Counted from the stretch's first letter, positions 27,807 to 63,510 are shown. The stretch: 64,000 nucleotides of DNA from a virus (IMGVR_UViG_3300006316_000001:1-64000), one strand, 5' to 3'. The notes: generated from the letters alone by a model not told the origin. Translations and numbers: made by a program.

Positions 27807-30164
27807 TTATGCGAAGAAGAAATCACTTTCTCTAACTTCTGACGCTTGAAGATCGCCCATCTCAAAGAAATCCGTGTAGTGAGGTAGGTTGGCTGCAGCT
27901 TCGTATTCACCATTTTCTCGTAAGAAGTCGACCCATTGATCGAACCACTTCTGCGGCCAGTTCTGTTCGTAGATGTCAACCCACGCTTCCTTAGCCTCAT
28001 GAAGAAGGGTTGCTGCATCATCAGGAGCTGAACCGAAAGAATCGTGAACCATAGCAAAATCTTCAATACCAACATCCTCACAACGATTGGTCGTAATGGA
28101 TAGATGGCTAGCATCACATGAGTGTGTTATGTTAGGTGAGCTTGAGCTCTCCATCTTAGCTTTGTTGATTTTGTTTGTATGGGTCAACATCTGGTAGTTC
28201 GTGTGCTTACCGTTGAATCTGATGTTAATATTCTTACGCTTCAGAATCTTCGGAGATTGTATGCATTGCATTCCGGCTGGGTTATCCCAAATCAACGGTA
28301 GGTTCACGGATGCTATGATACCAGCACAAGTTTGAACCCATTCCATGAATGCCATTGGACCCTTCAGCGATTCATCCATATTATCCCAAATACGTTCACC
28401 CATCCAGTTACCCGATTTAAATGGGTCACTGAAGTGATCTTCCTTACCACTATCAATGATGAACTCTTGGATACCCTCTTTTATGCCGTACAATTTCGCA
28501 CCATATGAACGAGTCATAACTGGTGTCTTAGTAATTTTACGGTCAAGAAGATTCGATGATAACCACTCAACGCCAAACGGACTACCGACGCCACGCAAAT
28601 CGCTAATCACACCATCACAAACATAACCATAAACATCACCACGCTTCTTAGTCTTAATTAGACCAACGTGGGGAGCAACAATACGGTCTCGTGTGATAGC
28701 AGCCAAGTTTTGAACGCCATTACACAAACCATCAAGTTGAACGTGGGTATTGATGAATGCTTGAGGGTTATCCAACCACTTCACATATTCAACAGCAGCC
28801 GCATAACCTTGGAATGGCTTATCCCAACCATGCCACAATTGACATTTGATAGGGTCTTTCACAACATCACGAAGAAGTTGCTCATTCGCTATAGTCCAAG
28901 CCACACGCTCATCAAGCTCAAGCTTATCATGACCGACAAGGTTGGCCATATTGATCATCATCCATCGAGCACCATCTAACGTTTTGACCTGTGTTGGTTT
29001 GAATTTGATCAAGCCTTTCTGATGGTCTGACCCCTGTGTATTTAGACCCGTCATACATTTATTGTAAATGCGCATACGAGAATCTAAGTCATGCGGAAAG
29101 AATATCTCAGGATAATCCTTGAACATTCTAGCCTGTTCAACTGAAGAACATCTCGATAGAATATTTGATACTCTACCTTGGCGCTTCTTCTTATTCAGTC
29201 GAACCTTTCGGCTCCACTTTCGGTGAATCTTTTTCTGGTCTTCGCTCATATCCGCATATTTGACATTAGGAAATGGCGCATTCTCATCATCAGGAACTGA
29301 CGCTGGGAATGCCTTCTTCAAAGATTCTGGACCATCTTCACCATATTGGTCAAAAAGGTTTAGTACATCAAGATTTACAGACCATGGTGTGCTTTGAATT
29401 GCGTTCATACCCTTTGCAATGTTCGCATTTATATTAGCATCTTCACCAACGTTCCTCTTCTTGATAGCATTAACCTTCAGTTGATCGCTATAGAAACCGC
29501 CATTATTACCCGTACTATCCCAATACTCAGGACGGTAGATCATCGGATAGATAACGTTGTTCATCATGGCAATGTTCTGGAGCTTACTTTCATATTTGAC
29601 GCGAAACTCTTCAGAGAGACCAACTAACCACTCCATGTGTTTAGAATCTGTATCAAAGAAATCTTTTCTGAATGTCAAAATATCAGTGAAGTTATCCTGA
29701 GCCAGTTGCAGAAGAACAAGAGAAACCTTACCACACTCAAACACACTCAACGCATCATCACCAACAATATTCGAATGAATTGTGTTACCAATTTGTGTGG
29801 ATATGTTAACGACCTTAAGATCACCATTCGCCATGTTAGTCATCAGTGAGCGCATAACAATGAATGACAATTGATCAGGAGTTGCCGGAAGATATTCAAA
29901 ACCAGTCTTGGTGTTCTTCTTGTTGATATAAAATCTCGCGTCACTGATCTTCATTAGCAGTGGTTTGTGCCCACTCTTATAGTTGACGCGCTCTTTTGCG
30001 GTGGCACTCTTGATTGCGCCTGTTAAACGCTCAATCATTTTCTCAAGAGTCTTTACCAGTGGACTATTGAAGTCATCGCTGGCTTCAACCGTCTCAAGGA
30101 ATTTCTCAGTACCTAGCCGCATCATATCATCTTCAAGTTGTATTTGATCATCATATGTCGACAT
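27807..30164 (-). CDS. T7-type single-subunit DNA-directed RNA polymerase
   Basis: 785 residues (T7: 883, so a shorter N-terminal domain). Motif A is VQLDGLCNGVQNLAAITRD (T7: DGSCSGIQHFSAMLRD). Motif B is RKITKTPVMTRSYGAKLYG, with the catalytic Lys and the Tyr that selects NTPs. Motif C is HSCDASHL followed by MVHDSFGSAPDDAA. The protein ends DFFFA, matching the T7 foot DFAFA. It would transcribe genes from a private promoter; the element CAATAGAAGGCTAATAGGAA lies 288 bp upstream of this gene and twice before the late genes. Rifampicin-insensitive late transcription would be expected. Confidence 0.93.
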   Translation of the reverse strand: MSTYDDQIQLEDDMMRLGTEKFLETVEASDDFNSPLVKTLEKMIERLTGAIKSATAKERVNYKSGHKPLLMKISDARFYINKKNTKTGFEYLPATPDQLSFIVMRSLMTNMANGDLKVVNISTQIGNTIHSNIVGDDALSVFECGKVSLVLLQLAQDNFTDILTFRKDFFDTDSKHMEWLVGLSEEFRVKYESKLQNIAMMNNVIYPMIYRPEYWDSTGNNGGFYSDQLKVNAIKKRNVGEDANINANIAKGMNAIQSTPWSVNLDVLNLFDQYGEDGPESLKKAFPASVPDDENAPFPNVKYADMSEDQKKIHRKWSRKVRLNKKKRQGRVSNILSRCSSVEQARMFKDYPEIFFPHDLDSRMRIYNKCMTGLNTQGSDHQKGLIKFKPTQVKTLDGARWMMINMANLVGHDKLELDERVAWTIANEQLLRDVVKDPIKCQLWHGWDKPFQGYAAAVEYVKWLDNPQAFINTHVQLDGLCNGVQNLAAITRDRIVAPHVGLIKTKKRGDVYGYVCDGVISDLRGVGSPFGVEWLSSNLLDRKITKTPVMTRSYGAKLYGIKEGIQEFIIDSGKEDHFSDPFKSGNWMGERIWDNMDESLKGPMAFMEWVQTCAGIIASVNLPLIWDNPAGMQCIQSPKILKRKNINIRFNGKHTNYQMLTHTNKINKAKMESSSSPNITHSCDASHLSITTNRCEDVGIEDFAMVHDSFGSAPDDAATLLHEAKEAWVDIYEQNWPQKWFDQWVDFLRENGEYEAAANLPHYTDFFEMGDLQASEVRESDFFFA

Positions 30165-30451: not shown

Positions 30452-30471
30452 TTCCTATTAGCCTTCTATTG
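30452..30471 (-). promoter_or_regulatory. Putative phage RNA polymerase promoter (copy 1, autoregulatory)
   Basis: Minus-strand CAATAGAAGGCTAATAGGAA, identical over 20 bp to 46329-46348 and 47598-47617. A-rich then AATAGGAA resembles the initiating end of T7-class promoters (TATAGGGA). It is placed to transcribe the small gene and the RNA polymerase itself. Confidence 0.7.
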
Positions 30472-31953: not shown

Positions 31954-32042
31954 TACGTTGCAACCTCTACAGTAAGGGAAGACACTAACCCTAGCACTTT
32001 ACCCTATAACATCCATTATACTCTTATTTTACGAGAAGTAAA
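31954..32042 (-). promoter_or_regulatory. Sigma-70 promoter cassette
   Basis: TTTACT (32037-32042), 16 bp, TATAAT (32015-32020). The leader has the GGGTTAG...CTTCCC arrangement of the second leader class. Confidence 0.82.
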
Positions 32043-46203: not shown

Positions 46204-46328
46204 TACACTCCCACAACATTCAACAACATCTCACCAGAACATTCCTTATATTTCCCACACACACGCGCGCGAGCATGCACACGAGAGAGACACTCGATAT
46301 GACCCAGAATGCCAGTTTAAGTGAATTT

Positions 46329-46348
46329 CAATAGAAGGCTAATAGGAA
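46329..46348 (+). promoter_or_regulatory. Putative phage RNA polymerase promoter (copy 2)
   Basis: CAATAGAAGGCTAATAGGAA, identical to 47598-47617 and to the minus-strand copy at 30452-30471, located 92 bp before the capsid-paralog start. Followed by GGAAAG and a small GTGT/ACAC hairpin. Confidence 0.7.
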
Positions 46349-46440
46349 GGAAAGTGTGCTTTTTAAAACACGCGACCTTTCATTTTATTGATGGGATAAT
46401 TCGATTACCCCATATCAAAACTAATGAGTGGGGAAATGAC

Positions 46441-47565
46441 ATGCATTTCAATAAGAAACTGAGAGCTATTGTTCTCGAAGCCGCACCACAACTGAAGGAA
46501 TCCATTCTTGAAGTTTTGAAAGCGGATAATGGTGAGATGAAGCTTGACCTTTCACGTAAGGTTAAACTTGACGACTCACTAAAGCTTAATGTTAAAACAT
46601 TGGCGATCGGTGGTACTGGTGGTGAAGCCCTAGCTATCGATGAATTGTTAATGGCTGATATCACAGATCGTGCTATTAACCAATTCTCAGGTATTTTTAC
46701 TGACCTTGATATTTCAGTGATCAATTCAGTGAATCATCGCGGTCTTGTGGAGTTAAATTCTCTTGGTGTAACTAAAGGCGTTGAAAACGTTCCTGGTCTA
46801 CCACAGTCTATGACTCCAACTGGTGAACTTGGTCAGCTTGTATCTCAGGTAGGTAAGGCTGCTATCATTACTTTTGTTTCGCAAGAAGCAGTGCGTGATA
46901 CGATGAATGGAGATTCGGTTTCTCTATGGGATTATATAGTTGAATCGGCTGCGCGCCAAATCGTACATTACTTCTCTATTCAGATCATCGCTGGAGATGG
47001 TAAACCTGACCGTCTTCGTGGCTTGGTATCTTCTAAGCGTATTGATGATGAAGAATCACTGAAGCCTGATCATGAACGTGACCCAGATTTTCTGCAAGTC
47101 AAACTATCAGGTGTCGATGGTGATTTTGGTACTGACGATAAGACAGCAGTTGAGAACATTGTATTTTTCTTGAACTCGGTTCCTTCGAAGAATCGTGCCA
47201 ATAGTAAAGTGTATATGAACTCAACAACTCACGCTGCGATTGAACTTCTTTCTTCTACGTCACCTCGTTTACGATTTGATGAAAAGGTTGTCGATGGTCA
47301 ACTGGTTACTACCGTTAATGGTTTTGTAATCTCTCTTGACGATATGATGCCTAATATGGATATGGGCTCAATCCCTATGTTGGTTGGCGATATTAATGCC
47401 GCTATTGAGTTTGCTTGGCACGACAAACAAACTGTCGTTGACCCATTCTCGATTGACGGTGCTATTAAATATAGTCAGTTCCCGCGTGCTTCAGAGCGTA
47501 TGAAAGATAATACCGCTTTACGAGCCTTCAAAATGTCAGCTGAAGCGATTCCTGCTCCTAATTAA
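46441..47565 (+). CDS. Second HK97-fold capsid protein (major capsid paralog, possible vertex protein)
   Basis: 374 residues from the ATG at 46441 (GGGGAAATGAC upstream; a longer GTG-initiated frame starts at 46321 inside the promoter and is rejected). Clearly paralogous to the major capsid protein at 55773-57026: KTLAIGGTGGEALAIDELL against KALAVGGTGGEALAIDEEL; ISVINSVNHRGLV against KSVSSVNYREMV; AGDGKPDRLRGLVSSKR against FGDGRPDNLRGILSSKR; VDPFSIDGAI against VDPYTTDGVV. It has a shorter N-terminal pre-domain. Own phage promoter, 9 kb from the capsid. By analogy with T4 gp24/gp23 it may form the pentameric vertices. Confidence 0.82.
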   Translation: MHFNKKLRAIVLEAAPQLKESILEVLKADNGEMKLDLSRKVKLDDSLKLNVKTLAIGGTGGEALAIDELLMADITDRAINQFSGIFTDLDISVINSVNHRGLVELNSLGVTKGVENVPGLPQSMTPTGELGQLVSQVGKAAIITFVSQEAVRDTMNGDSVSLWDYIVESAARQIVHYFSIQIIAGDGKPDRLRGLVSSKRIDDEESLKPDHERDPDFLQVKLSGVDGDFGTDDKTAVENIVFFLNSVPSKNRANSKVYMNSTTHAAIELLSSTSPRLRFDEKVVDGQLVTTVNGFVISLDDMMPNMDMGSIPMLVGDINAAIEFAWHDKQTVVDPFSIDGAIKYSQFPRASERMKDNTALRAFKMSAEAIPAPN

Positions 47566-47597
47566 AACTTGGGTTCAGAAACACAGTTATAGGTTTT

Positions 47598-47617
47598 CAA
47601 TAGAAGGCTAATAGGAA
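47598..47617 (+). promoter_or_regulatory. Putative phage RNA polymerase promoter (copy 3, late operon)
   Basis: CAATAGAAGGCTAATAGGAA followed by GGGAAG, 33 bp after the capsid-paralog stop; drives the long late operon. Confidence 0.7.
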
Positions 47618-47855
47618 GGGAAGTGCCGCAACCTTTTAGGTGTTAGCGCAGTTACATTATCACTACTGACTTTGACCCTTCAAACTATGGTGAACAATTC
47701 TGGGATGTCTAATTGAGCGTGATAAGCTCGACCCGAACATGAAAAATTCCCAGAGCCGTAGACCCCCATTTACGACGAGTGTGTTGGGGAATGCCTCGTC
47801 GTATCTTACCTTTGAACACTTTTCCCCTTCGGGTTGAGTATCCAAAGGTAAGGTT
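47618..47855 (+). promoter_or_regulatory. Structured leader with RBS-sequestering hairpin before endonuclease VII
   Basis: Two perfect stems: ACGACGAG/CTCGTCGT (47772-47779 with 47795-47802) and CTTACCTTT/AAAGGTAAG (47805-47813 with 47844-47852). The second 3' arm contains the AAGG ribosome-binding site of the gene starting at 47856, so the stem would hide it. Upstream, a frame without a start codon (ending DFDPSNYGEQFWDV at about 47721) may be the remnant of a gene. T4 gene 49 is known to be controlled by a similar leader hairpin. Confidence 0.65.
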
Positions 47856-48335
47856 ATGAAAAGAATAACAAACAACCAAAAAGAAATGTGGAGACTTTTC
47901 CTCCACGATAAGCAGAAAGGGATATGCCCACTTTGTGGAACTTATATTTCTCTCTGTAATGAAGACGGTAAGGATGAGTCCGTATTGGACCATGACCATG
48001 ATACAGGTCGTATCCGTGCCGTTCTCCATCGCAGCTGTAACTCTGCTGAGGGTAGAATTCTGAACTTCGCTGATAAGCGGTGTCGGAGTGAAGACCCTAA
48101 ATCGTTCTTGGTCAACATGGTGAAATATTGGGAAGCTGATTACAGTCATCACCCATTCCACCCTGACCATACTATTGAGGAAGAAGATGAACGTCTGAAA
48201 TTGAAGCGCAAACTGAAGAACTTGAAGGCAGCACATGCCATCGATAAAACCAAAAAGCGCATCGCTGAATTGTCAGAAATCATCAAAGCGAGTATCGAAC
48301 TTGTTCCTCCACCTTCTGAATGGTTTAAAAAGTGA
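47856..48335 (+). CDS. Recombination endonuclease VII-family nuclease
   Basis: 159 residues. The His-Me (beta-beta-alpha metal) finger is clear: CPLCGTYISLC, then LDHDHDTGRIRAVLHRSCNSAEGRI, with zinc cysteines and the DHDH catalytic core of the T4 gp49 family. It lacks the long C-terminal half typical of branched-DNA resolvase, but has a coiled Lys/Glu segment (about 115-150). It may resolve Holliday junctions before packaging or act as a homing nuclease of the same family. Confidence 0.85.
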   Translation: MKRITNNQKEMWRLFLHDKQKGICPLCGTYISLCNEDGKDESVLDHDHDTGRIRAVLHRSCNSAEGRILNFADKRCRSEDPKSFLVNMVKYWEADYSHHPFHPDHTIEEEDERLKLKRKLKNLKAAHAIDKTKKRIAELSEIIKASIELVPPPSEWFKK

Positions 48336-48342
48336 GTGCACT

Positions 48343-48576
48343 ATGAATGGTAAAATTCCTGAGCGTGGCTATTTCGGTAGTAGCTCGAAGATGCTTGCAC
48401 TCACTGATGATTTCATTTCTGGTATCCGTCAGAAATGTAAAGAGCGCAAGTTGAAATTCAGCTTCCAGAAGAAAGACGATTACACAACCGATTTCCAAAT
48501 TGGTTATGATCTATATCGTTTGTCTAATAATGGTACGAGCGCATCGACCCAATTTTTGGGCACAATGAAATTCTAG
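48343..48576 (+). CDS. Hypothetical protein
   Basis: 77 residues from the ATG at 48343, basic (RQKCKERKLKFSFQKKDDY). Its stop codon shares one base with the start of tRNA-Asn. No family recognised. Confidence 0.55.
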   Translation: MNGKIPERGYFGSSSKMLALTDDFISGIRQKCKERKLKFSFQKKDDYTTDFQIGYDLYRLSNNGTSASTQFLGTMKF

Positions 48577-48651
48577 GACGGTTAGCTCAGTAGGTAGAGC
48601 AGTGGACTGTTAATCCATTGGCCACAGGTTCAAGTCCTGTACTGTCCGCCA
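48576..48651 (+). tRNA. tRNA-Asn (GTT)
   Basis: Complete 76-nt cloverleaf. The acceptor GGACGGT pairs with ACTGTCC (one GT pair), D-arm TAGCTCAGTAGGTAGAGC, anticodon loop CTGTTAA with anticodon GTT, T-arm ACAGG-TTCAAGT-CCTGT, and an encoded CCA end. Confidence 0.95.
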
Positions 48652-48888
48652 GTTTCGGTAAAGTATCTCACCTGATCAGTTAGTGAAAATCCGAAGTCAC
48701 CTTTTAAGAATCTAGAGTCTATGAAGGTGATGGAGCGGGGCATCTCCTAAACTGCCCAACAATGTTGCATTAAATGAAGTTCCTGACAGTCAGGAAGTGA
48801 ATGTTCACTACTGGACAGCTTCATTTAATCATCGCTTTCTTAGCTGAGTTGGTTTAGTGGGACTCAGACCCAAGAGCCATTTCAAAAT
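48652..48888 (+). ncRNA. Highly structured non-coding segment after tRNA-Asn
   Basis: No convincing gene. An 11-bp outer stem ATTAAATGAAG (48769-48779) / CTTCATTTAAT (48819-48829) encloses TTCCTGACAGTCAGGAA (48780-48796) and GTGAATGTTCAC (48797-48808). Just upstream lie CAACAATGTTG and GGGCA...TGCCC stems and a CACCTT...AAGGTG pair. Looks like a multibranched RNA; may be a new small RNA or degenerate tRNA-derived DNA. Confidence 0.45.
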
Positions 48889-49203
48889 ATGATTTGCAAA
48901 AAGAAAACACCTCCACAAACTAGGATATCCGAGTGGTATAAATGGTGCGGTAAAAGTCCGAAGTATCCGCGAATTAATTTCATGCATCCTGAGATTTACA
49001 GGCTTCACGAAATCATGTGTGTAAGAGCAGGTCGTTTCGCCCCCAAACGTTGTGTGGGGCATAATTTAAGCATTCTTCAACCACTTATAGTTGGCCACCG
49101 TATTGTGGTGTCTCACTGGAGAGTGTTTAAATTATCTACATTCAGTTCGCCAGAAGTAACTTTTCAAAAGTGCGGTGGTGCTGAATGTTTCATTTGTGCC
49201 TAA
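48889..49203 (+). CDS. Doubtful hypothetical protein
   Basis: 104 residues, Cys/Arg-rich (MICKKKTPPQTRISEWYKWCG), without a Shine-Dalgarno site and overlapping the next tRNA by 8 nt. May be a pseudogene or non-coding. Confidence 0.3.
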   Translation: MICKKKTPPQTRISEWYKWCGKSPKYPRINFMHPEIYRLHEIMCVRAGRFAPKRCVGHNLSILQPLIVGHRIVVSHWRVFKLSTFSSPEVTFQKCGGAECFICA

Positions 49204-49273
49204 AGCTCATTAGGTATGAGCCGTCGCCTCATAAGCGAAGGGTAGATGGGTTCGAATCCCTCTAGGCGCACCA
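49196..49273 (+). tRNA. Divergent tRNA with CAT anticodon (Met or Ile2)
   Basis: Acceptor GTGCCTA pairs with TAGGCGC, then A-CCA. D-arm GCTC...GAGC, anticodon loop CTCATAA (anticodon CAT), T-loop TTCGAAT. Weak points: a mismatch at the top of the anticodon stem, and the T-stem GA-GGG/CCCTC pairs only if one T is bulged. Functional or decaying. Confidence 0.6.
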
Positions 49274-49302
49274 CTCCAATGTTTGACTATTCAGAGGTAT
49301 CT

Positions 49303-49533
49303 ATGAAGACTATCGAACAATTGGTCAAGCATATGAAAGAAACATATGATGTGACCATCACTCCTGAAATGCAAAGCCGCATCGAAGGAATTAGAAAACC
49401 GACTAGCAAAACCGATTTTCCAGGAATCACGTTGATCGCTCCATATCGTGGCCAGTTTGGTGTACATCGTATCATCGAAAAGGATGAATGCATCTTTTCT
49501 ATATCTGATACATTTCTGACCGCAATTAAATGA
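49303..49533 (+). CDS. Hypothetical protein
   Basis: 76 residues from the ATG at 49303 (GAGG upstream). Starts MKTIEQLVKHMKETYDVTIT; alpha/beta, no recognised domain. Confidence 0.55.
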   Translation: MKTIEQLVKHMKETYDVTITPEMQSRIEGIRKPTSKTDFPGITLIAPYRGQFGVHRIIEKDECIFSISDTFLTAIK

Positions 49534-49543
49534 GGATTTAACG

Positions 49544-49957
49544 ATGTCTCTTGATCAAAAACACCCAGATTACGCAAAACATGTTCTGATCACTAAAGGT
49601 GATGGGAAAGTTACAGCTTCAAACCTTTACATTTTCACTACTCGAAAGGAACGTCGCGGGTACTTTATCTGTGATAGTGAAGGTAATCCGCTGGAACCGC
49701 AAGTGATTAACGATAAGATCTCTGAGCCTTCAGTTCCTGAGATCACTACACAACCGATGCCTGACCTTCAGACATCTGATGTTGAAATCACTACACAGGC
49801 AACTCCTGAACTTGAAGTGAAAGAACCTGAGATCGAAGTCAAAGTCGATGAATCGGCTGTACCTGAAGACCTTGTTTGCCCTCATTGTGAAGCCAAAGCT
49901 CGCACTGAATCTTCATATTTGAAGAATCATGGCGACAACTGCTCAATGAAGGTGTAA
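49544..49957 (+). CDS. Hypothetical protein with Pro/Thr/Glu linker and zinc finger
   Basis: 137 residues: an N-terminal beta domain (1-60), a low-complexity linker with EITTQ repeats (about 68-115, VPEITTQPMPDL and VEITTQATPELE), and a C-terminal CPHCEAKARTESSYLKNHGD segment ending in another Cys, a C2HC-type finger. May bind DNA or head proteins. Confidence 0.6.
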   Translation: MSLDQKHPDYAKHVLITKGDGKVTASNLYIFTTRKERRGYFICDSEGNPLEPQVINDKISEPSVPEITTQPMPDLQTSDVEITTQATPELEVKEPEIEVKVDESAVPEDLVCPHCEAKARTESSYLKNHGDNCSMKV

Positions 49958-50014
49958 GTTTGGTGTTGGGGGTAGTTTCCTCGCCCTCAGCGCCCTTTTG
50001 CCTAGGAGTGTGTT

Positions 50015-50410
50015 ATGATACCTGTTAAGTGTGTCGCTCCAGGATGTCGAACCATCGTTCGTGATCCAGGGCATAGTCGGTGCGAGCTCCACCGCAAAAA
50101 GCAAAAAGGGCATGCCAATAAGGTTCGCGCTGAACAGAGAAAAGTGCAGAACAAAGCGAAGTCCTTTATATACAATACAGCATCATGGAAACGTTTGTCT
50201 ATTAAGAAGAGAACCGTTGATCCATTTTGTGAAGAATGTCTACTCCAGAATCCGGTAATCTATAAACAGGCTGACGTGGTCGACCATATTGTCGAACTTA
50301 CTGATGGTGGTGAGCCATATCTTTGGACCAACCTCAGATCCCTCTGTCACGCTTGTCACAACCGGAAAACTGCTCAAGAAAAGAAAAAGCGAAAGCGCAA
50401 TATTGTGTAG
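50015..50410 (+). CDS. HNH endonuclease next to terminase
   Basis: 131 residues. Basic N-terminus with CVAPGCRTIV, then CEECLLQ (zinc), VDHIVELTDGGEPYLWTNLRSLCHACHNRKT (HNH core D-H...N...H). Matches the small HNH proteins beside terminases in HK97-type phages, which help TerL cut DNA during packaging. Confidence 0.88.
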   Translation: MIPVKCVAPGCRTIVRDPGHSRCELHRKKQKGHANKVRAEQRKVQNKAKSFIYNTASWKRLSIKKRTVDPFCEECLLQNPVIYKQADVVDHIVELTDGGEPYLWTNLRSLCHACHNRKTAQEKKKRKRNIV

Positions 50411-50442
50411 TGTCGTTCATCCCTTTGCGAACGGCACTACAC
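50405..50442 (+). promoter_or_regulatory. 14-bp hairpin overlapping the HNH stop codon
   Basis: GTGTAGTGTCGTTC pairs with GAACGGCACTACAC around a 10-nt loop (one GT pair). No T-run, so it is more likely an RNA-processing or stability element than a terminator. Confidence 0.55.
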
Positions 50443-50461
50443 AAACAATCGAGGATTTATT

Positions 50462-51346
50462 ATGTACATTAAAATAGGTATGCGTGAAATCGAACTTGAT
50501 CTTGACGCAAAATACCATGTGTATGGTGAAAACATCGATGCGCAAGCTGTTGTCGAAATGGACTTTGAGCATCTCAACTGGTTAGACCAACGTATTGTGT
50601 CGCAGAGCATCAACCTCAATCAGGAAATTTCAATACTATTCCATCCGGAAGTTGTCTCTAGCTTGGAGACTGAAATTGAGAACAGTCCTTTTTGGGAGAA
50701 AAACCGTTTCGAAGCTTTAGCCGTATTCAGACGTCTTCAACAGAAGACACCGGATGCAAAAGAAGACAAGCAGAAACGGAAGATGCTGAAGGAAGTTGAT
50801 TTGAAAGAATCCAAGTACGTTCAGAAACGCTTCAGAGTCGTGAATATGCTGGTGTCCCGAGGGTATGAACGCCCTGACGCTATGGAATATTTGACCGCAG
50901 TTATTGAACAGAAAGGTTCAGGCGTCATGAACTTGAAGCCAGCTGAGATATGTGATTTCGTTGACATATTCACTGGTGCAGTTCAAGATCCAAATGAAAC
51001 CCAGTATCATACACGTGATGATACTCGTCCTTGCACGTTGTACTATTTACAGTTCACTCACCAACAAACGGGTGAGACGTTCAAGAAAATAGGTATAACT
51101 GTGAGACCATTGGCTGAGAGATTTGTATTGGACGTTAAGACATTCGATCTTGACATTATCCATACAGTGGAACTTCCGGCTAATGAAGCAAAAGACATCG
51201 AAGCGGCTATCAAGAAAGAGTTTAAGCCATACAAGTACACCCCTGAAACCAAATTGCGTAAAGGTGGTGATACTGAATGCTTCACTGATGAACTTATTGA
51301 TGCGTCCGTCATGAAGATGATGGGCAGAAACAAAGTTTCATTGTAG
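50462..51346 (+). CDS. T5orf172/GIY-YIG-like domain protein before terminase (possible small-terminase fusion)
   Basis: 294 residues. C-terminal half: LYYLQFTHQQTGETFKKIGIT, then RPLAERF, then AIKKEFKPYKYTP and GGDTECF, the pattern of the T5orf172 (GIY-YIG superfamily) domain. The N-terminal about 165 residues are helical and unassigned. Because it fills the slot where a terminase small subunit normally lies, the N-terminal half may be TerS with a nuclease-like appendage. That is inference from position. Confidence 0.55.
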   Translation: MYIKIGMREIELDLDAKYHVYGENIDAQAVVEMDFEHLNWLDQRIVSQSINLNQEISILFHPEVVSSLETEIENSPFWEKNRFEALAVFRRLQQKTPDAKEDKQKRKMLKEVDLKESKYVQKRFRVVNMLVSRGYERPDAMEYLTAVIEQKGSGVMNLKPAEICDFVDIFTGAVQDPNETQYHTRDDTRPCTLYYLQFTHQQTGETFKKIGITVRPLAERFVLDVKTFDLDIIHTVELPANEAKDIEAAIKKEFKPYKYTPETKLRKGGDTECFTDELIDASVMKMMGRNKVSL

Positions 51347-51355
51347 AATTAACAG

Positions 51356-51375
51356 AAGGTCATTTAGATGGCCTT
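51356..51375 (+). terminator. Weak hairpin before terminase large subunit
   Basis: AAGGTCAT-TTAG-ATGGCCTT with one wobble, then TTGATTAATTTT. Possibly a partial attenuator. Confidence 0.35.
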
Positions 51376-51401
51376 TGATTAATTTTGCTAAGGATATTGT
51401 T

Positions 51402-53159
51402 ATGAATTATCTTAAGAAGGTAAAGAATTTCGATATGGAGCAATTCAACCATGGGGTTCCCGAATATAATATGACTTGGGAGTCCATGGACCAATATGCA
51501 TACAATGTCATGATGGGAATTGTTCCCGTCGGAAAACAAGTAAAGTATTGTGTGGCTCGTTATATTTATGATCGAGTTACAAGAAAAGATTTAGAATTGA
51601 GAACTCACGAAGTAGATGAGTTGTGTCAATTCGCTGGTCTGTTGAAACACGTTAAAGGTCCATTGAATGGTAAGCCTGTCGAGTTGATGAACTGGATGGT
51701 ATTCGTTCTTGGTAACATCTTCGGATGGTATCACAAAACTGGGCATAAGAAAGGTACGCGAAGATTCACCAAAGCATTCACATTAGTTGCTCGTGGTAAT
51801 GCAAAATCTTTCTTATGTTCCATTGTTGCTCTTTGGACTCAGTTGACCTCACCCAACGGTTCTCCGTCATGTTATTCAGTTGCTCGTCAACGGGATCAGG
51901 CGAGAATCGTTTTTGACGATGCGTCTAAGATGCTTAGAAATGCTGATCCTATTTTGAGGCGTTGGTTCAAACCCCACGCCCATGATATGGAGTGTATATT
52001 CCAAGATGGTATCTTTAAACCGATGTCGTCAGATTCTCAATCGTTGGATGGGCACCGTGTTGCTTTGGGTATCGCTGATGAGCTACACGCTCACCACAGT
52101 GGTGAACTCCTTAACACATTATTGTCTGGTACGACAGCTGTTAATGATCCTCTAGTATTCTCAATATCTACCGCTGGTAAACAGTTGGAAGGTGTTTGTG
52201 TTTCAGAGAGGAATGTTGTGCGCTCAATCAATGAAGGCTTCGAAAAAGAGGATTCATACTTCGGTATCGAATATGCCCTTGATGAAGATGATGATTGGGA
52301 TGACGAGAGTTGTTGGTATAAATCCAACCCATCTCTTGGACATGCTGTGAGTATTGACGATTTGCGTGGTAAGGTTGTTCGTGCTAAGAATAACGTAGTT
52401 AACCGCGTTGATTTCCAGACCAAGCACTGTAACATATTTGTGAACACCAATGATAATCCATATTTGGACATCTTGGAACTTCAAATAAAATGTGCCAGAG
52501 AAGACCAGAAACTGTCAGACTATGTCGGACGGGAATGTTTCGGTGGTCTCGATTTGGCGCAGAAAACGGATTTGACCGCTCTAGCATTATTGTTCCCTGA
52601 GAAAGATGGTTCATTGACTGCTTTCTTCCGGCACTACCTACCTGAAGGTGCGTTGGAAAAACAGACCGCAGGTCGTTATGAAGCATATCTTCAGTGGGAA
52701 GAAGAAGGACACATGATATTCACGGAAGGTTTTTCCACGGATTATGCGTTCATAGAAAAGGACATTCGTTGGGCTGCTAAGAATTTCGATCTTCAGCAAG
52801 TTGGGTTTGACCCATACGCTGGTACGCAGCTAGCACTTGGCCTTATCAAAGATAATATTGATATGGTCGAGGTTCGCCAAGGCTATGCGAGTTTGAGTGA
52901 ACCTGCCAAGTTATTCCAATCTCTAATCGTCGACGGCAAATTCAACTATCAGGATTCTGACAAAGTCTTTGAGTGGTGTGCATCAAACTCTGTTTGTAGC
53001 GCCGACCTCAACGAGAACATCAAAGTCCATAAGGCGAAAGATAAGCCTCATGACAAGGTTGACTCTATTGTTGCCTTGATTACTGGCTTGGCTCTTGCCA
53101 AGTTGAAAGAACCTAAGAAGAAATCACCATACCGTAAACGGGGTATGTTGGTTGTTTAG
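51402..53159 (+). CDS. terL: Terminase large subunit
   Basis: 585 residues from the ATG at 51402 (AAGGA 7 nt upstream; an in-frame TTG lies earlier). HK97/lambdoid Terminase_1 type: Walker A TLVARGNAKSFL (about 130), Walker B ALGIADELHAH, coupling motif FSISTAGK, and C-terminal nuclease with FGGLDLAQKTDL, then QVGFDPYAG and DKPHDKVDSIVAL. It translocates and cuts DNA into the prohead. Confidence 0.95.
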   Translation: MNYLKKVKNFDMEQFNHGVPEYNMTWESMDQYAYNVMMGIVPVGKQVKYCVARYIYDRVTRKDLELRTHEVDELCQFAGLLKHVKGPLNGKPVELMNWMVFVLGNIFGWYHKTGHKKGTRRFTKAFTLVARGNAKSFLCSIVALWTQLTSPNGSPSCYSVARQRDQARIVFDDASKMLRNADPILRRWFKPHAHDMECIFQDGIFKPMSSDSQSLDGHRVALGIADELHAHHSGELLNTLLSGTTAVNDPLVFSISTAGKQLEGVCVSERNVVRSINEGFEKEDSYFGIEYALDEDDDWDDESCWYKSNPSLGHAVSIDDLRGKVVRAKNNVVNRVDFQTKHCNIFVNTNDNPYLDILELQIKCAREDQKLSDYVGRECFGGLDLAQKTDLTALALLFPEKDGSLTAFFRHYLPEGALEKQTAGRYEAYLQWEEEGHMIFTEGFSTDYAFIEKDIRWAAKNFDLQQVGFDPYAGTQLALGLIKDNIDMVEVRQGYASLSEPAKLFQSLIVDGKFNYQDSDKVFEWCASNSVCSADLNENIKVHKAKDKPHDKVDSIVALITGLALAKLKEPKKKSPYRKRGMLVV

Positions 53160-53183
53160 GTATAAAAATGTCGGGAGACCACA

Positions 53184-54524
53184 ATGAATTTTATTTCTAA
53201 AATAAAGGGTGCATTAAGTGGTACATCAACTCCAGTCAAGCCTTATGTTCCAGAAATGAAACAGAAGGCGAATCCGTACAGTGATAATTCATTTTTCGGC
53301 AGCTTAGGTGTTAAATCATCATACGCTGGCGTTGACGTCAATTATACGAGCGCAATGAGACACAATGATGTTTACACATGTGTTCGTATAAAGGCTGAAT
53401 CATTAGGACAACTTCCTATTCAGCTATACCGTCACAACGCAGATCGAAAAACGAGAATTACATCAGGACGTGAATACAAGATATTCACGCAGAAACCTAA
53501 CGCATATCAGACATGGCAAGATTTCATTGAGCAATACGTTGCATCATTAGAAATCCAAGGCAACTTTTATGCTGAGATTAAGCGAAATACATACGGAAAC
53601 GTGTATGAGATTGTACCATTCAGATACCAGAACAACGTGAGCGTTGAGATGGATTCTTATGGTCGTGTGTACTACACATACTCAACTAACGATGGCAAAG
53701 GGCGAGTCGAAAAGAAGACATACGCTCCTTCATCAATACTACACGTTAAATTGTTCACCACAGATGGCTATCGAGGATTATCCCCGATAACTCAATGTGC
53801 GAGAGCAGTGGGTGTCGCAATCGCAAGTGAAACCACCGCAGCTACAATGTTCGAAAAAGGAGCAAAGCCTGCAGGTGTGTTACAAACAGACGAAGTGTTC
53901 GATGATGACGATGATTCTATAAACCGTCTTCGCGACCAATGGCAAGAATTATATGGTGGACCTGATAACTCGGGTAAGATCGCCATCCTTGAATCAGGTT
54001 TGAAATTCCAATCTGTTTCATTGTCTGCTGTTGATTCACAACTTCTGGAACAACGTAAATTCACTCGTGAACAAATCTCATCAATCTTCAGAGTTCCATT
54101 ACACATGCTTCAAGCAGCTTCCGGTATGAAATATGCCTCGGTTGAGGGTAACAATAAATCTTTCTATAAAGATGCGTTGATGCCTTTGGCTATTAAGTTG
54201 CAGAATGCGATTAATGAAATTCTACCAGAGAACCATACCATTAAAATGGACGAGAAAGAATTCGTCCGTGGCGACCGTGAGTCGCATGTTAAGACAGTCA
54301 AGGAAGAATTGACTGCTGGGTTTATCTCTATCAATGAAGGTCGAATCGAATTAGGTTATCAGCCAGTCGAAGGTGGCGATGTATTTGCTGTACAGACGAA
54401 TAACTTGACGTTCGGGCGTTATGATGAACTACCATCAGTTGAGGAACAGATGAAATCTAAGAATCCATCCAGTCCTGAGCCTAAACCTGATGCCCCTCCG
54501 AAGGAGAGTAACAATGGCACGTAA
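53184..54524 (+). CDS. Portal protein (HK97 family)
   Basis: 446 residues. VYTCVRIKAESLGQLPIQLYRH, LEIQGNFYAEIKR, VLHVKLF-like SSILHVKLFTTDGYRGLSP, and FTREQISSIFRVPLHML are standard phage_portal features. The tail is Pro/Ser-rich. It forms the dodecameric vertex ring through which TerL pumps DNA. Ends inside the protease start (11-nt overlap). Confidence 0.93.
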   Translation: MNFISKIKGALSGTSTPVKPYVPEMKQKANPYSDNSFFGSLGVKSSYAGVDVNYTSAMRHNDVYTCVRIKAESLGQLPIQLYRHNADRKTRITSGREYKIFTQKPNAYQTWQDFIEQYVASLEIQGNFYAEIKRNTYGNVYEIVPFRYQNNVSVEMDSYGRVYYTYSTNDGKGRVEKKTYAPSSILHVKLFTTDGYRGLSPITQCARAVGVAIASETTAATMFEKGAKPAGVLQTDEVFDDDDDSINRLRDQWQELYGGPDNSGKIAILESGLKFQSVSLSAVDSQLLEQRKFTREQISSIFRVPLHMLQAASGMKYASVEGNNKSFYKDALMPLAIKLQNAINEILPENHTIKMDEKEFVRGDRESHVKTVKEELTAGFISINEGRIELGYQPVEGGDVFAVQTNNLTFGRYDELPSVEEQMKSKNPSSPEPKPDAPPKESNNGT

Positions 54525-55671
54525 AATGCAAACAAAAGGTTTTGACCAAAAGATTATCATCAAGTCCAAGGATGACGCACCGGAAGGTACATTCGTGGCA
54601 TATGGTAATGTGTTTGGCGTGAAAGATAACGCTGGTGACATCACAGTCAAAGGCTGTTTCTCAAACACAATTAAAAAGCATAAGTCTGAAGGCACAATGC
54701 CTCGCTTATTGGCGCAACACGGACATCGTATGATGCCTATTGGTATCATAACTGATATGATTGAAGACGAAAAAGGTCTTCGCTTTGAAGGTCAATTCTG
54801 CCTTGAGACGCAAGCTGGCTCTGAAGCCCACGCTCTTTGTAAGATGGGCGCAATCGATCAGTTTAGTATCGGTTACGTGACACTTGATCAAGAGATGACA
54901 ACTAAAGGTAATCTGTTAAAAGAACTTGACGTTGCTGAAATTTCTCTTGTGACTTTCGCTTGTAATGAACATTCAACATTAGTGGACGTTAAGTCAGCAG
55001 TGGAGAATGAAGAATTGACCCCGCGCCTTCTTCAGAAAGCGATCCGCGATGCATTCGGTCTTTCTAAACGTCAGTCTGAAGCAGCTATTAATGCGATAAA
55101 AGCGACTGAGCGTGAAGAAGTTGAAGAAGAATCCACCGAAGTTAAAGAACTTGGGTTGGACGAAGCGTTCCGCGTCAAAATGTCAGAAGCTCCGGAACTT
55201 ACTAAGTTCTCCGACGGACTTGAAGTCAAGTCCCTTGGCGATAAGTCTTTCCAACAGGTTCTTTCTGGAATCAAATCAGCTCTGGTTGAACCAATCGGTC
55301 ACTGGGATTTCTATCTTGATGATGTATTTGAATCTAAAGGATATGTCGAATTCTGTGACTACCGCGCTCGCAAGTACAAGCATGCTGAGTTCGAATGGAT
55401 GATGGACGACATGGGCGAAGTTCAAGTGACTTCCTTCAAGACTGGCACCAAAGAATACGGCACAACATTTGTTGTTGATGCTGAAGATGGCGTTAAAAAT
55501 AACGTTGACGACATCGAATCTAAACACGAAGATGAAGAAACTGTTGAATCATTAGCAGCGAAACTTCTTGGTGTTGATTTCGAGACCAAAGAAGAATCGG
55601 ATGTTGAAAATAACACAAAAGCCGATGATATTGATCTCGAAACTATTGATCTAACTGAATTGCTCAAGTAA
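54514..55671 (+). CDS. HK97-type prohead protease with long C-terminal extension (possible scaffold fusion)
   Basis: 385 residues from the ATG at 54514 (AAGGAGA upstream). Residues 1-165: GTFVAYGNVFGVKDNAGD, catalytic His in LLAQHGH, Ser in DQFSIGYVT and EISLVTFACNEHS, a U35-type serine protease. About 220 extra residues follow: a Glu-rich linker and a folded-looking domain (GHWDFYLDDVFESKGYVEF). HK97 gp4 is about 225 residues, so the extension may supply scaffold or other functions. Confidence 0.9.
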   Translation: MARKMQTKGFDQKIIIKSKDDAPEGTFVAYGNVFGVKDNAGDITVKGCFSNTIKKHKSEGTMPRLLAQHGHRMMPIGIITDMIEDEKGLRFEGQFCLETQAGSEAHALCKMGAIDQFSIGYVTLDQEMTTKGNLLKELDVAEISLVTFACNEHSTLVDVKSAVENEELTPRLLQKAIRDAFGLSKRQSEAAINAIKATEREEVEEESTEVKELGLDEAFRVKMSEAPELTKFSDGLEVKSLGDKSFQQVLSGIKSALVEPIGHWDFYLDDVFESKGYVEFCDYRARKYKHAEFEWMMDDMGEVQVTSFKTGTKEYGTTFVVDAEDGVKNNVDDIESKHEDEETVESLAAKLLGVDFETKEESDVENNTKADDIDLETIDLTELLK

Positions 55672-55772
55672 GTGGGGGAACCACTTAATTGACGGATGAC
55701 TCTTTGTGGTGGTCCACATAGATAAATCCAAACACATCTTTTATTATAATCCCTCATTTAAGGATACATACA

Positions 55773-57026
55773 ATGTCTGCTATTGAACAAATCAAAGAAG
55801 CTCAAACACTAGCTGTTAAAGAAGCAACGGCTCCACTGAACGAAAAACTAGACCAACAAGAACTTGTCATCAAAGAACAAGGTGAACTGATCACATCACA
55901 AACTGAGCTTCTTGAAGAAGTTAAGCAAACTGTTGCTGATCTTGAATCTAAGCACTCTGATCTGGTTCCTGCTTCTGTGGAAGTGTCTGAAGTTAAATTC
56001 GACCGCAAAGTGCTGAACCAAAAGCTACGTGATCTATTCACTGGCGATAAAGGTGTTGACCTTGCGAATGTTGACACTAAAGCTCTTGCTGTTGGTGGTA
56101 CTGGCGGTGAAGCCCTAGCTATCGATGAAGAACTAGGTCGTCGCGTTATCGAGCGTTCTCGTGAAAACGTTGCAATCCTTGGTCTAATCGGTTCTAAGTC
56201 TGTAAGTTCTGTTAACTATCGTGAGATGGTTCTTCGTAACTATCCTGGTACTGCTAAAGGTATCGAGAACGTTGCTGGTACTGACTGGAATGCGACAGCG
56301 ACACAGACTTACGAACAGGTTGTGATGCAAGTTGCTAAGCAATACGCGAAGCCACAAATCACACACGAAGCTGCACGTGACCCACACATCGACCTAATGG
56401 CGCATCTTGAAACACTACTAGCTGAAGAAATGTCTCGTTACTGGGCTCTTCAAGTTCTATTCGGTGATGGTCGCCCTGATAACCTTCGCGGTATCCTATC
56501 AAGCAAACGCGCATCACTTGGTGCTGGCTCAGAATCTCGTAAAGATGCTGCTGAGCGTGACTTCGACTTCTACAAAGTTGTACCATCAACTGAAGCCGCT
56601 AAACTTGGTTCTGATCATGAAGAGATCATCGACAACATGATTGATCTGACTATCGAAGTTCCAACTCAGTACCTATCTAATTCATCTTACACGATGAACC
56701 GTCGTACTCTGGGTGTTCTTCGTAAGATCAAACAATCTACGGATGGTACTGATCTTCGTCCTCTGATCCAATTCGAAGCTGGTAACTTTACTCTTGTTGG
56801 CTATGGTGTTAACATCGAAGACTACATGCCTGATGTTGCGACTGACTCAATGCCGATCATCTTTGGTGATCTTTCTCGCGCATTCGTTCTTATCGACATC
56901 GATGACGAGTACCTAGTTGACCCATACACCACAGATGGTGTTGTTACGCTGAAGTCTACTTCTCGTAAAGGTGAAATTGTTCAGAACAACGATGCTATCG
57001 TTATTCTGTCGTGTGAAGCAGCATAA
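55773..57026 (+). CDS. Major capsid protein (HK97 fold)
   Basis: 417 residues. An N-terminal coiled-coil delta domain (about 1-70: LNEKLDQQELVIKEQGELI), presumably cleaved by the protease, then the HK97 core: GGTGGEALAIDEELGRRV, SVNYREMVLRN, ITHEAARD, LQVLFGDGRPDNLRGI, P-domain and VDPYTTDGVV near the C-terminus. SD AAGGA 8 nt upstream. A hairpin terminator follows, as expected for a highly expressed gene. Paralog at 46441-47565. Confidence 0.93.
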   Translation: MSAIEQIKEAQTLAVKEATAPLNEKLDQQELVIKEQGELITSQTELLEEVKQTVADLESKHSDLVPASVEVSEVKFDRKVLNQKLRDLFTGDKGVDLANVDTKALAVGGTGGEALAIDEELGRRVIERSRENVAILGLIGSKSVSSVNYREMVLRNYPGTAKGIENVAGTDWNATATQTYEQVVMQVAKQYAKPQITHEAARDPHIDLMAHLETLLAEEMSRYWALQVLFGDGRPDNLRGILSSKRASLGAGSESRKDAAERDFDFYKVVPSTEAAKLGSDHEEIIDNMIDLTIEVPTQYLSNSSYTMNRRTLGVLRKIKQSTDGTDLRPLIQFEAGNFTLVGYGVNIEDYMPDVATDSMPIIFGDLSRAFVLIDIDDEYLVDPYTTDGVVTLKSTSRKGEIVQNNDAIVILSCEAA

Positions 57027-57047: not shown

Positions 57048-57072
57048 GGGAGACCTCGGTCTCCCATTTTTA
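57048..57072 (+). terminator. Rho-independent terminator after major capsid
   Basis: GGGAGAC-CTCG-GTCTCCC then ATTTTT. Confidence 0.85.
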
Positions 57073-59412: not shown

Positions 59413-59907
59413 ATGGCTTTAAAAGACATTTCTCTCGCAAACTTTACCACAGTATCATTCTTCGATCATGACGTTGGTAGTGGTGAGTTTGTTGAGATAG
59501 CAGAAGTGCAATCATTGACGCATCCCACGGATGAGCGAACAATTATTGAAGTTCCCGAGTTTGGAACTGATTATCCAACCAAGCGTGTTGGTTCGAGTTC
59601 AACGGGTAATGCTGAGGTTGTTGTTAACTTCAACCCTGCTGAACCGTCACATATTCGCATGCTCGAAATTTATGAGAAGCGTGCTCTTATGTTGTTCCGA
59701 ATCACAATCAACAGTGATAACGCTGGAACTGACAGTTCATTTTTCGAATTCAATGGACAAGTGGCATCGAAAACATCTTCAGGTGAATTTGACGCGATGA
59801 CTACATTGACATTCTCAATCACAGTTGATGGAAAATTGGGTGAGTGGGATACTCCACTTTCAACCCCTGCTCCAGATCCTGAACTTCCTGACGAAAATGC
59901 TCCATAA
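59413..59907 (+). CDS. Major tail tube protein A
   Basis: 164 residues. Shares with the next gene QSLTHPTDE, TGNAEVVVNFNP, GQVASKTSSGEFDAMTTLTFS and a G-EW end. Beta-rich, as tail-tube subunits are. The C-terminus is a Pro/Asp-rich tail (PAPDPELPDENAP) absent from the second copy. Confidence 0.82.
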   Translation: MALKDISLANFTTVSFFDHDVGSGEFVEIAEVQSLTHPTDERTIIEVPEFGTDYPTKRVGSSSTGNAEVVVNFNPAEPSHIRMLEIYEKRALMLFRITINSDNAGTDSSFFEFNGQVASKTSSGEFDAMTTLTFSITVDGKLGEWDTPLSTPAPDPELPDENAP

Positions 59908-59918
59908 GGGGGAAAATG

Positions 59919-60371
59919 ATGGCAGGTTTAACTGACATTTCTATTGGTAACTTTACCAAGGTGTATTACAACACCGGAACAACAGCATCTCCTACATGGG
60001 TTGAGATTGAGCGCATTCAAAGCCTAACGCATCCAACAGATGAAAAGAATATCGTGGAAGTTCCTCGATACGGTAGTATCTACCCTACCAAATTGGCTGG
60101 TTCTGCCTCAACTGGTAATGCTGAGATTGTTGTTAACTTTAATCCTGATAATTCAACACATCAATACTTGCTTGCTTCATACAAAAATGGTAGTTCTGAA
60201 GAATTCAAGATTGAAGTGAATGAAGACATTGACGGTACAAACGGTTCATATTTCCGTTTCGCAGGTCAGGTTGCTTCTAAATCATCATCAGGTGAATTTG
60301 ATTCCATTACCACAATGACATTCTCATTATCTGTGAATGGCGCTATTGGTGATTGGACACCTAACGCTTAA
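59919..60371 (+). CDS. Major tail tube protein B (tandem paralog)
   Basis: 150 residues from the second of two ATGs (GGGGGAAAA upstream). Roughly half identical to the preceding gene and similar throughout. Two tube proteins may co-assemble, or one may be a minor form. Confidence 0.82.
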   Translation: MAGLTDISIGNFTKVYYNTGTTASPTWVEIERIQSLTHPTDEKNIVEVPRYGSIYPTKLAGSASTGNAEIVVNFNPDNSTHQYLLASYKNGSSEEFKIEVNEDIDGTNGSYFRFAGQVASKSSSGEFDSITTMTFSLSVNGAIGDWTPNA

Positions 60372-61170: not shown

Positions 61171-63510
61171 ATGTCCCAAAATCTATCACAGGTCAATATT
61201 GTCCTGAATGCCAATAGTGCTGAGTATGTGAGAAAACTGGCGCAGACTCAGAAGAAAACAAACACTGAACTGAAGAAGATGGAGAAGTCGTACAACAAAC
61301 TTTCTTCAGCTATTAGTCCAGTGACATCCACAGCATTAGCTGCAGGTGCCGCATTACTCAGCGTGGCTGAAAATGCCAGACAAAATGCAGTTGAGTTGGA
61401 ACGGAGCGCCTACGCTGCTGGTTTGACGGTTCCTGAATTTCAGGCAATGTCGCTCGCAGTTAAAACTGTTGGCATCAATACTGAGCAGTTGGGTTCGATT
61501 CTTGGTGACACCGAAGAGAAAGTTGCTGACTTCCTAACATCAGGTGGTGGTGGGTTTTTGGACTTTGTTGAGGTCATGGGTTTCACAAAAGAAGAAGCTC
61601 GTGAAGTTGCCAAAGAACTCCAAGGTCTTTCCGGACGAGACGTTTTAGTTGAGATGACTCGGCGAATGGAAGAGGCTGGCGTATCTGGTGAGAAAATGAA
61701 TTTAGCCCTAGAGGGTATGGCTTCAGATTCCCGCCACCTAATTCCGCTATTACGAGATAATGGTAGAGAATTGGAAACCATGGAAAAGCGCATGGGGTCT
61801 TTGGCTACAACTCTTGAAGAAGAGACTGTTGATGAACTGAACAAACTGGCGACTGTTACGACCATTGTTGCTAATAACATGTCCAACACACTAGCTACCG
61901 CGCTTGTTTCTGTTTCAGATTACTTGCTTGAAGCTGGTGAGAATGCTGCATTCTTTTGGGCTAGTCTACAGACAGGAACTTCGCAACAAGTTCTTTCTGA
62001 TATGGCAACTGTTTCTGACCAAATGAATGCAATCAAACGCGAGATTGGTGAACTTGAGGATGGTAATACATTTGCCAACTTCATAGGTCAGGGTGACGAA
62101 CAGATAGAAAAGCGTTTGGACCGTCTTGCTGAACTTGAGGTTGAGTATAAGAAATTGTCCGACCAGTACAAGTCACTCCAAGGTCTGGAAGTTCCTGAGC
62201 TACCTAGTGGTACAATTGAGGTCGACACTGTCATCAATCCACCGGAGCCTAAAACTCAATTCGATAAAGACCTTGAGAAAAAGGCTGGTGATATATCTAT
62301 GTCCAGCGGTTCATTACTTGGAGCGATCTCTCAAGAAGAAATCGAAGCCAGTAATAAACTCATGGAAGAAGAGATGAAGAAGTTGCAACAATACTCTTCT
62401 GACCTCAAAGATCTTTCTAATGAAAATGCGTTGAATCGAGCACTGATGGGTGGAAACCCTGATGAGATTCTTTCAGCGAAGAATGACCTTCTCAATAGCT
62501 CAATGCAACAAGAGATTGATTCTCTTGATAAGAGCCTGATGACCACTGAGCAGTATGAGGCTAATAAATCTGCCATTGAAGAGAAGTATCGCATACAACG
62601 TTCAGAACTGGCTCAAAGGGATAGTGATGAGCGTATGACGATCATGGAAGAAGAGATCCTGAAAATGGAACAATACTCTTCTGACCTTCAAGCGTTGACT
62701 CAGCAAAATGACCTTTCGCGTGCCATTATAGGTGGTAATCCTGAAGAGATTATTGCTGCCAAGGATGCTCTTCTTGAAACCTCAATGCAACAAGAGATTG
62801 ATTCTCTTGACCAGAGACTGATGACTACTGAACAGTTTGAAGCCAATAAAGCTGCCATTGAAGATAAGTACCGTCTGGCGAAACAGCAAGCTGATAAAGA
62901 TGCTGCTCAAAAGAAACATGATTTGGACAAAGCTTATCAGGACATGGAACTCACGGTTGCTAAGACTACCGTTGATAGTCTGGGGCAGATCAATAGCATC
63001 ATGGGTGAAGATAACCAAGTTCTCAATGCTGCTTTATTCGCGGCACAACAAGTTCTGGCAATCGCTCAGGTTACTATAGATACACAACGCGCTAGTATGG
63101 CGGCATTGGCCATTGACCCGACGGGTTTACTTTCAGCCAAAGCAGAGATGCAAGGTTCTATTGCGTTGGGTATAATTGGTGCGACATCTGTTGCTAAAGC
63201 AGCATCAGGTCAATTCCACGGTGGTATTGATGAACTTCCACAATCAATGGACAACAAATCATTTATGTTGAAAGCTGGTGAGCGTGTTGTTCAACCAAAA
63301 GCCAATGAAGAGTTGACTGAGTTCTTAGGTGCGCAGAAAGAGAATGGCTACCAGTCTGGTGGTCAACAAGTCATAAACGCACCACTGACCATTAATGGTT
63401 CAGTTACAGACGAAGCTTGGTTCAACAAAAAGCTTGTACAGCACCGCAACACAATAGCGGCTTCTGTTAAGAAAGTTGAGAAAGAGCGACCAAATAAATC
63501 TAGACGATAA
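61171..63510 (+). CDS. Tape measure protein
   Basis: 779 residues; a length near 115 nm of tail is expected at about 0.15 nm per residue. Helical N-terminus (KLAQTQKKTNTELKKMEKSYNK), a hydrophobic segment (STALAAGAALLSVA), a domain to about residue 260, a long coiled-coil middle with a 94-residue tandem repeat, then hydrophobic helices (AQQVLAIAQVTI) and an Ala/Gly-rich end (FMLKAGERVVQP). No lysozyme or peptidase domain is evident. Confidence 0.92.
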   Translation: MSQNLSQVNIVLNANSAEYVRKLAQTQKKTNTELKKMEKSYNKLSSAISPVTSTALAAGAALLSVAENARQNAVELERSAYAAGLTVPEFQAMSLAVKTVGINTEQLGSILGDTEEKVADFLTSGGGGFLDFVEVMGFTKEEAREVAKELQGLSGRDVLVEMTRRMEEAGVSGEKMNLALEGMASDSRHLIPLLRDNGRELETMEKRMGSLATTLEEETVDELNKLATVTTIVANNMSNTLATALVSVSDYLLEAGENAAFFWASLQTGTSQQVLSDMATVSDQMNAIKREIGELEDGNTFANFIGQGDEQIEKRLDRLAELEVEYKKLSDQYKSLQGLEVPELPSGTIEVDTVINPPEPKTQFDKDLEKKAGDISMSSGSLLGAISQEEIEASNKLMEEEMKKLQQYSSDLKDLSNENALNRALMGGNPDEILSAKNDLLNSSMQQEIDSLDKSLMTTEQYEANKSAIEEKYRIQRSELAQRDSDERMTIMEEEILKMEQYSSDLQALTQQNDLSRAIIGGNPEEIIAAKDALLETSMQQEIDSLDQRLMTTEQFEANKAAIEDKYRLAKQQADKDAAQKKHDLDKAYQDMELTVAKTTVDSLGQINSIMGEDNQVLNAALFAAQQVLAIAQVTIDTQRASMAALAIDPTGLLSAKAEMQGSIALGIIGATSVAKAASGQFHGGIDELPQSMDNKSFMLKAGERVVQPKANEELTEFLGAQKENGYQSGGQQVINAPLTINGSVTDEAWFNKKLVQHRNTIAASVKKVEKERPNKSRR
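62390..62880 (+). repeat. 94-residue tandem repeat inside the tape measure gene
   Basis: 282-bp period: QYSSDL, then GGNP-EEI, then SSMQQEIDSLD-x-x-LMTTEQ recur. 29 bp around CAATGCAACAAGAGATTGAT are identical at 62500 and 62782. Confidence 0.9.

Follow-up and report, generated by a model that had tools for sequence, protein, structure and literature searches.

The window that we analyzed comprises bases 1-64000 of a 106,815-bp IMG/VR virus record (~107 kb), the genome of a marine-type phage. The left 46 kb of the window are mostly on the minus strand and carry replication and nucleotide genes, together with genes for a single-subunit RNA polymerase, a family B DNA polymerase and a DnaB-type helicase. 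To the right, plus-strand genes encode terminase, portal, S78 protease, major capsid protein (MCP), neck, two tail-tube-like proteins, tape measure and fibres, and the tail tube is lambda-like (PF16460). On structural genes the closest phages are the Vibrio phages V6Aob, 2.058.O and henriette 12B8 (98-107 kb), whose large terminase subunits (TerL) are 53-55% and MCPs 58-59% identical to those of this phage. The MCP gene has its place in a TerL-portal-protease-MCP order, and a second capsid gene is found 8.2 kb away from it. The main genes and the element that follows the MCP gene are:

27807-30164, minus strand: single-subunit (T7-type) phage RNA polymerase (RNAP) gene (PF00940, E 1e-69)
46441-47565, plus strand: diverged capsid paralog, 374 aa, HK97 fold (BLASTP, PF05065, TIGR01554, AF2/Foldseek)
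51375-53159, plus strand: terminase large subunit, TerL (phrog_9, E 2e-141)
53184-54524, plus strand: portal protein (PF04860, E 7e-83)
54490-55671, plus strand: prohead protease, S78 (PF04586, E 3e-21)
55773-57026, plus strand: MCP, 417 aa, with an N-terminal coiled-coil pre-domain (relatives' MCPs; gene order; AF2 helix 2-61)
57048-57065, plus strand: terminator-like hairpin, immediately 3' of the MCP gene

Between the capsid paralog and the terminase there are two tRNA genes, tRNA-Asn (48576-48651) and tRNA-Met (49196-49273). The phage also carries, on the minus strand, a BCCT-family (betaine/choline/carnitine) transporter gene (genome about 96.8-98.2 kb; PF02028, E 2e-53) and genes for two 5-hmdU DNA kinase-type proteins, one at 1189-2178 of the window and the other at about 100.3-102.1 kb of the genome. 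Both of the latter match PF18723, the longer one also PF18748, and they are 29% identical; the pair suggests that the phage DNA may contain hypermodified thymine.

The initial annotation had taken the genes at 46441-47565 and 55773-57026 for paralogs, with the HK97 fold in both products. Both open reading frames are present at these coordinates, and BLASTP aligned their products with 103 of 332 residues identical (31%, E 3e-47). Both proteins match PF05065 (E 3.7e-14 for the paralog and 5.9e-34 for the MCP) and TIGR01554 (E 1.1e-15 and 4.5e-40, respectively), the paralog scoring above the curated cut-offs of the two families (53.2 bits against 24.2, and 57.6 against 27.5). The AF2 model of the paralog has a pLDDT of 73.9, with residues 61-371 mostly well predicted and residues 1-60 unreliable (pLDDT <50), and its best Foldseek match is the RcGTA capsid (6tb9, E 3.8e-18). 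When compared with solved structures, both models retrieved the RcGTA capsid, then the capsid of the cf-PICI EcCI2, with HK97 lower down; by sequence profile and by fold, RcGTA Rcc01687 and the EcCI2 capsid are the nearest solved structures for both proteins. The RcGTA shell, including its pentamers, consists of a single capsid protein (PMC7296036). The paralogy and the fold both stand, and the paralog can be placed in the HK97-type major capsid family (PF05065/TIGR01554), with a predicted HK97 fold.

As had also been noticed, the pre-domain of the paralog is the shorter one: ~51 residues precede the conserved K-x-L-A-[IV]-G-G motif, versus 102 in the MCP. The long helix that AF2 predicts at residues 2-61 of the MCP is absent from the paralog; the coiled-coil portion of its pre-domain has been lost. 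Moreover, it retains 27 of 43 near-invariant MCP residues, while true MCPs retain 41-43 of about 44, and four of the residues that it has lost are in the E-loop. By these residues and by its lack of a coiled-coil pre-domain, the paralog does not qualify as a main shell protein; its frame is intact, and its sequence indicates that constraint on it is altered. The same losses, together with the retained N-arm, also give it a dominant-negative look. It might, as the initial annotation also considered, be an interfering or decoy subunit, acting outside the normal virion, that poisons capsid-hijacking satellites or superinfecting relatives, or regulates head size. The promoter-proximal, moron-like cassette described below would suit such a decoy, and capsid assembly would then be under a novel kind of phage control. 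We nevertheless regard a decoy as rather unlikely, as a phage that highly expressed an assembly poison from its own late promoter would be harming itself, and the literature searched held no known phage example.

Conservation between the paralog and the MCP is uneven. Identity reaches 14/16 at the start of the N-arm and 23/47 in the post-spine helix segment, and is 18-38% in the rest of the mature domain. Together, the two segments have 37/63 identical residues against 61/245 elsewhere, a ratio of 2.36 (Fisher p 7e-7, an optimistic value, as the segments were picked after inspection of the alignment). In 11 other capsid proteins the ratio ranged from 0.59 to 1.12, and none shows the pattern of the paralog. 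The conserved segments are equally close to the MCPs of V6Aob, henriette and L003 as to the phage's own MCP, which argues for retention and not recent exchange. N-arms mediate capsomer-capsomer contacts in JBD30 (PMC11445458) and in T4 (PMC9958956). We had first supposed that the two conserved segments are both turned towards neighbouring capsomers, but gave this up for the post-spine one by analogy with the RcGTA capsid, where Asp210 is at the pentamer axis (PMC7296036), the residue numbering there not being matched to the paralog. By this analogy the post-spine segment may be close to the axis of the capsomer and not at the contact between capsomers, so we draw no conclusion about an interface from it.

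The two genes also share a short block of nearly identical DNA:

46609-46644, plus strand: 36-bp block encoding GGTGGEALAIDE, 35/36 identical to 56094-56129
56094-56129, plus strand: MCP counterpart of the 36-bp block

The blocks are alike except for one base, just as first described. In a simulation that took the shared 12-residue motif and each gene's codon usage as given, a match of this kind had p ~0.0035. Outside the block, identical residues have identical codons in 45 of 99 cases, against 47.6 expected, with no excess over chance. A recent duplication, as might be read from the block, is ruled out because synonymous sites are saturated elsewhere; the duplication is therefore old, perhaps with a small conversion tract added later. 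What the block itself reflects is the shared motif together with codon bias; at the very most it marks a tiny conversion tract, for which it is weak evidence.

To place the paralog among related capsid proteins we used a tree of 36 rows, in which it stands beside the henriette-type MCP clade with support of 83/69, on a branch of length 2.75 (median 0.24, about tenfold shorter). An AU test did not reject its grouping with the outgroup (p 0.157). The paralog and 9/9 henriette-clade MCPs have two motifs in common, a pre-domain one ([DE]xK[FL]D) and an N-arm one (GxGG[EQ]xLAID), which the other capsid proteins compared all lack. In the paralog the first of them reads:

46534-46548, plus strand: EMKLD motif, residues 32-36, otherwise seen in henriette-type MCPs only

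The restriction of the two motifs to the paralog and this clade favours descent of the paralog from an MCP of the kind found in Vibrio phages henriette 12B8, V6Aob and 2.058.O. The motifs also argue against a different origin that the loose placement in the tree would allow, namely that the paralog is an alternative MCP from another phage, building a second kind of head of other size or shape. Such a protein would, in addition, have come without a coiled-coil pre-domain and without a protease, portal or scaffold of its own, and we consider this origin quite improbable.

Within the sensitivity of the scans, no closer relative of the paralog came up in phages, plasmids, IMG/VR or species genomes. 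Each of 15 related records searched whole (11 named phages and 4 from IMG/VR) has a single capsid gene; one of them, Artemius (W07), gave an extra marginal match over 49 profile columns. Among the tblastn matches listed for phages, all were MCPs; a phage record that matched in two places proved to be a split circular record. In plasmids there were only weak matches of 23-27%. Pattern scans of IMG/VR and species genomes, whose reach is limited to close relatives, found no ortholog, and a DNA-level search with the paralog cassette matched only the endonuclease VII gene.

The cassette is delimited by repeated promoter-like sequence:

30452-30470, minus strand: putative promoter, third copy, preceding a small ORF and the phage RNAP gene
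46326-46356, plus strand: 31-bp direct repeat (promoter) at the left border of the paralog cassette, 97% identical to 47595-47625
46330-46348, plus strand: putative (late) promoter for the phage RNAP, upstream of the paralog, an exact 19-mer common to 47599 and 30452
46345-46460, plus strand: leader of the paralog mRNA, structured and spanning the ribosome-binding region (MFE -29.8, z -3.34)
47595-47625, plus strand: 31-bp direct repeat (promoter) at the right border of the paralog cassette
47599-47617, plus strand: putative promoter, second copy, right after the paralog and before the endonuclease/tRNA/terminase region

Positions 46328-46350 hold a promoter-like 23-mer, TCAATAGAAGGCTAATAGGAAGG, of which 47597-47619 is a perfect second copy (0 expected by chance), and an exact copy of the putative phage-RNAP promoter is located 92 bp upstream of the paralog. 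Its 19-bp core has three exact occurrences, before the RNAP gene, before the paralog and right after the paralog; no further copies were found in the rest of the genome, and the sequence was not found elsewhere in IMG/VR. The separate phage promoter proposed for the paralog is supported as a putative one of late type, with exact copies before the RNAP gene and the late region. These copies also bear on the possibility of an assembly chimera, in which the paralog gene would belong to a different phage of the metagenome. In favour of a chimera are the source of the contig, an IMG/VR virus record, and the lack of a known ortholog; yet the promoter is identical to those of this very phage, and G+C and codon usage are continuous across the region, which makes a chimera highly improbable.

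Paralog and promoter form a 1269-bp unit between the 31-bp direct repeats (spacing 1269 bp), and such repeats could explain a clean gain of the gene or its precise loss by recombination. A non-essential moron or decaying duplicate, without a present role in the head, would look much like this: a removable gene-plus-promoter unit, absent from all relatives examined and on a very long branch. We consider it unlikely, however, as the 374-codon frame is intact after synonymous saturation, the N-arm and post-spine segments have been selectively retained, and the codon usage of the paralog is typical for this phage. Codon adaptation to the MCP is 0.488 for the paralog, compared with 0.741 for the MCP itself and about 0.40 for portal and TerL, and the structure of the MCP leader is not unusual (z -1.26), in contrast to that of the paralog. 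Codon adaptation and the structured leader fit a moderate expression of the paralog; promoter activity, late timing and stoichiometry are what we infer from these features. A separate family of ~55-bp repeats on the minus strand (at 32008, 33131, 36284, 39134, 43567 and 45892) reads as host-type promoters, AGAGTATAATG with upstream CTTTACTTCT, and these are likely to be early promoters.

In T4, gene 24 adjoins gene 23, while the paralog described here is at a distance from the MCP gene and has its own putative promoter. Hexamer/pentamer division of labour is described as rare in tailed phages, with T4 as the standard example (PMC13185644; PMC9958956). Its vertex protein, gp24, is a paralog of gp23, ~20% identical to it and with a propeptide of 10 versus 65 residues; it probably arose by duplication and can be bypassed by MCP mutations (PMC9958956). 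Our paralog resembles gp24 in being a strongly diverged MCP duplicate encoded by a separate gene, with the same fold as the MCP and a shorter pre-domain (cleaved in gp24). It differs in that gp24 is an established vertex protein and the paralog a candidate one, and in family: the paralog and MCP belong to PF05065/TIGR01554, in a phage with a lambda-like tail tube, and neither matched the T4-type capsid family (Pfam E up to 10, NCBIfam E up to 1). The independence from gp23/gp24 suggested in the initial annotation is supported by this, and a vertex role would have to be a separate origin. In the open-access literature searched, T4 was the documented case of a vertex paralog in tailed phages; the vertex protein reported for phiCbK was set aside as a precedent, having been published as a processed form of the MCP.

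Most likely, the paralog is a neofunctionalised minority subunit of the shell, made late with the head proteins. Accelerated divergence, loss of the self-assembly coiled coil, and retention of the N-arm and post-spine loop fit a minority partner of the MCP, as do the lower codon adaptation and the structured leader, and the genome holds both the MCP and a diverged paralog of it, as expected for a vertex protein. This pattern is compatible with the vertex without being specific to it. In the mechanism that we propose, an old duplicate of a henriette-type MCP gene would have become a dedicated minority shell subunit, expressed late from a promoter for the phage's own RNA polymerase. As the scaffolding coiled coil of the pre-domain is gone, this subunit would be unable to drive assembly alone; the MCP-built shell would take it in via the N-arm, which has been retained. 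Its short pre-domain would then be cut by the S78 prohead protease at the junction marked by the conserved K-x-L-A-[IV]-G-G motif, and the subunit would occupy the eleven non-portal vertices, working like T4 gp24. Co-assembly, cleavage, vertex position and low copy number are all steps that we infer. We give this complete reading, with the duplicate at the vertices, a little under an even chance, and the vertex, as proposed in the initial annotation and held with that same reserve, is the likeliest site by analogy with gp24.

Several observations count against the vertex. Henriette 12B8, V6Aob and 2.058.O each have one capsid gene only, and their vertices are evidently made of MCP, which means that capsids of this type can do without a vertex protein. 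The four lost E-loop residues could equally mean loss of assembly, the position of the gene between direct repeats and far from the MCP is like that of a removable moron, and no ortholog among the searched sequences speaks for long-term conservation of the gene. A minority subunit elsewhere in the head (scattered in hexamers, around the portal, or in the prohead only, timing the action of the protease) would be backed by the same sequence evidence, differing from the vertex reading in location alone. We hold it to be unlikely, given that the best documented precedent for an HK97-fold paralog, T4 gp24, is at the vertex. Should the paralog indeed be a vertex subunit, tailed phages would have evolved a dedicated penton protein a second time, independently, in the PF05065 family and apparently in one lineage only, with single-protein close relatives; we consider such an origin possible, with slightly less confidence than the vertex role itself. 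Since those relatives have a single capsid gene at the MCP identity given above, the states that precede and follow the origin of a vertex protein could both be studied, the isolated phages henriette 12B8 and 2.058.O representing the single-protein state.

Finally, the capsid gene is not the only duplicated structural gene in this phage. The tail-tube-like genes at 59413-59907 and 59916-60371 are a tandem pair with 53% mutual identity, and both match one same gene in V6Aob, henriette and 2.058.O. The tape measure gene contains an imperfect direct repeat of 232 nt (77%), at 62360-62591 and 62642-62873.
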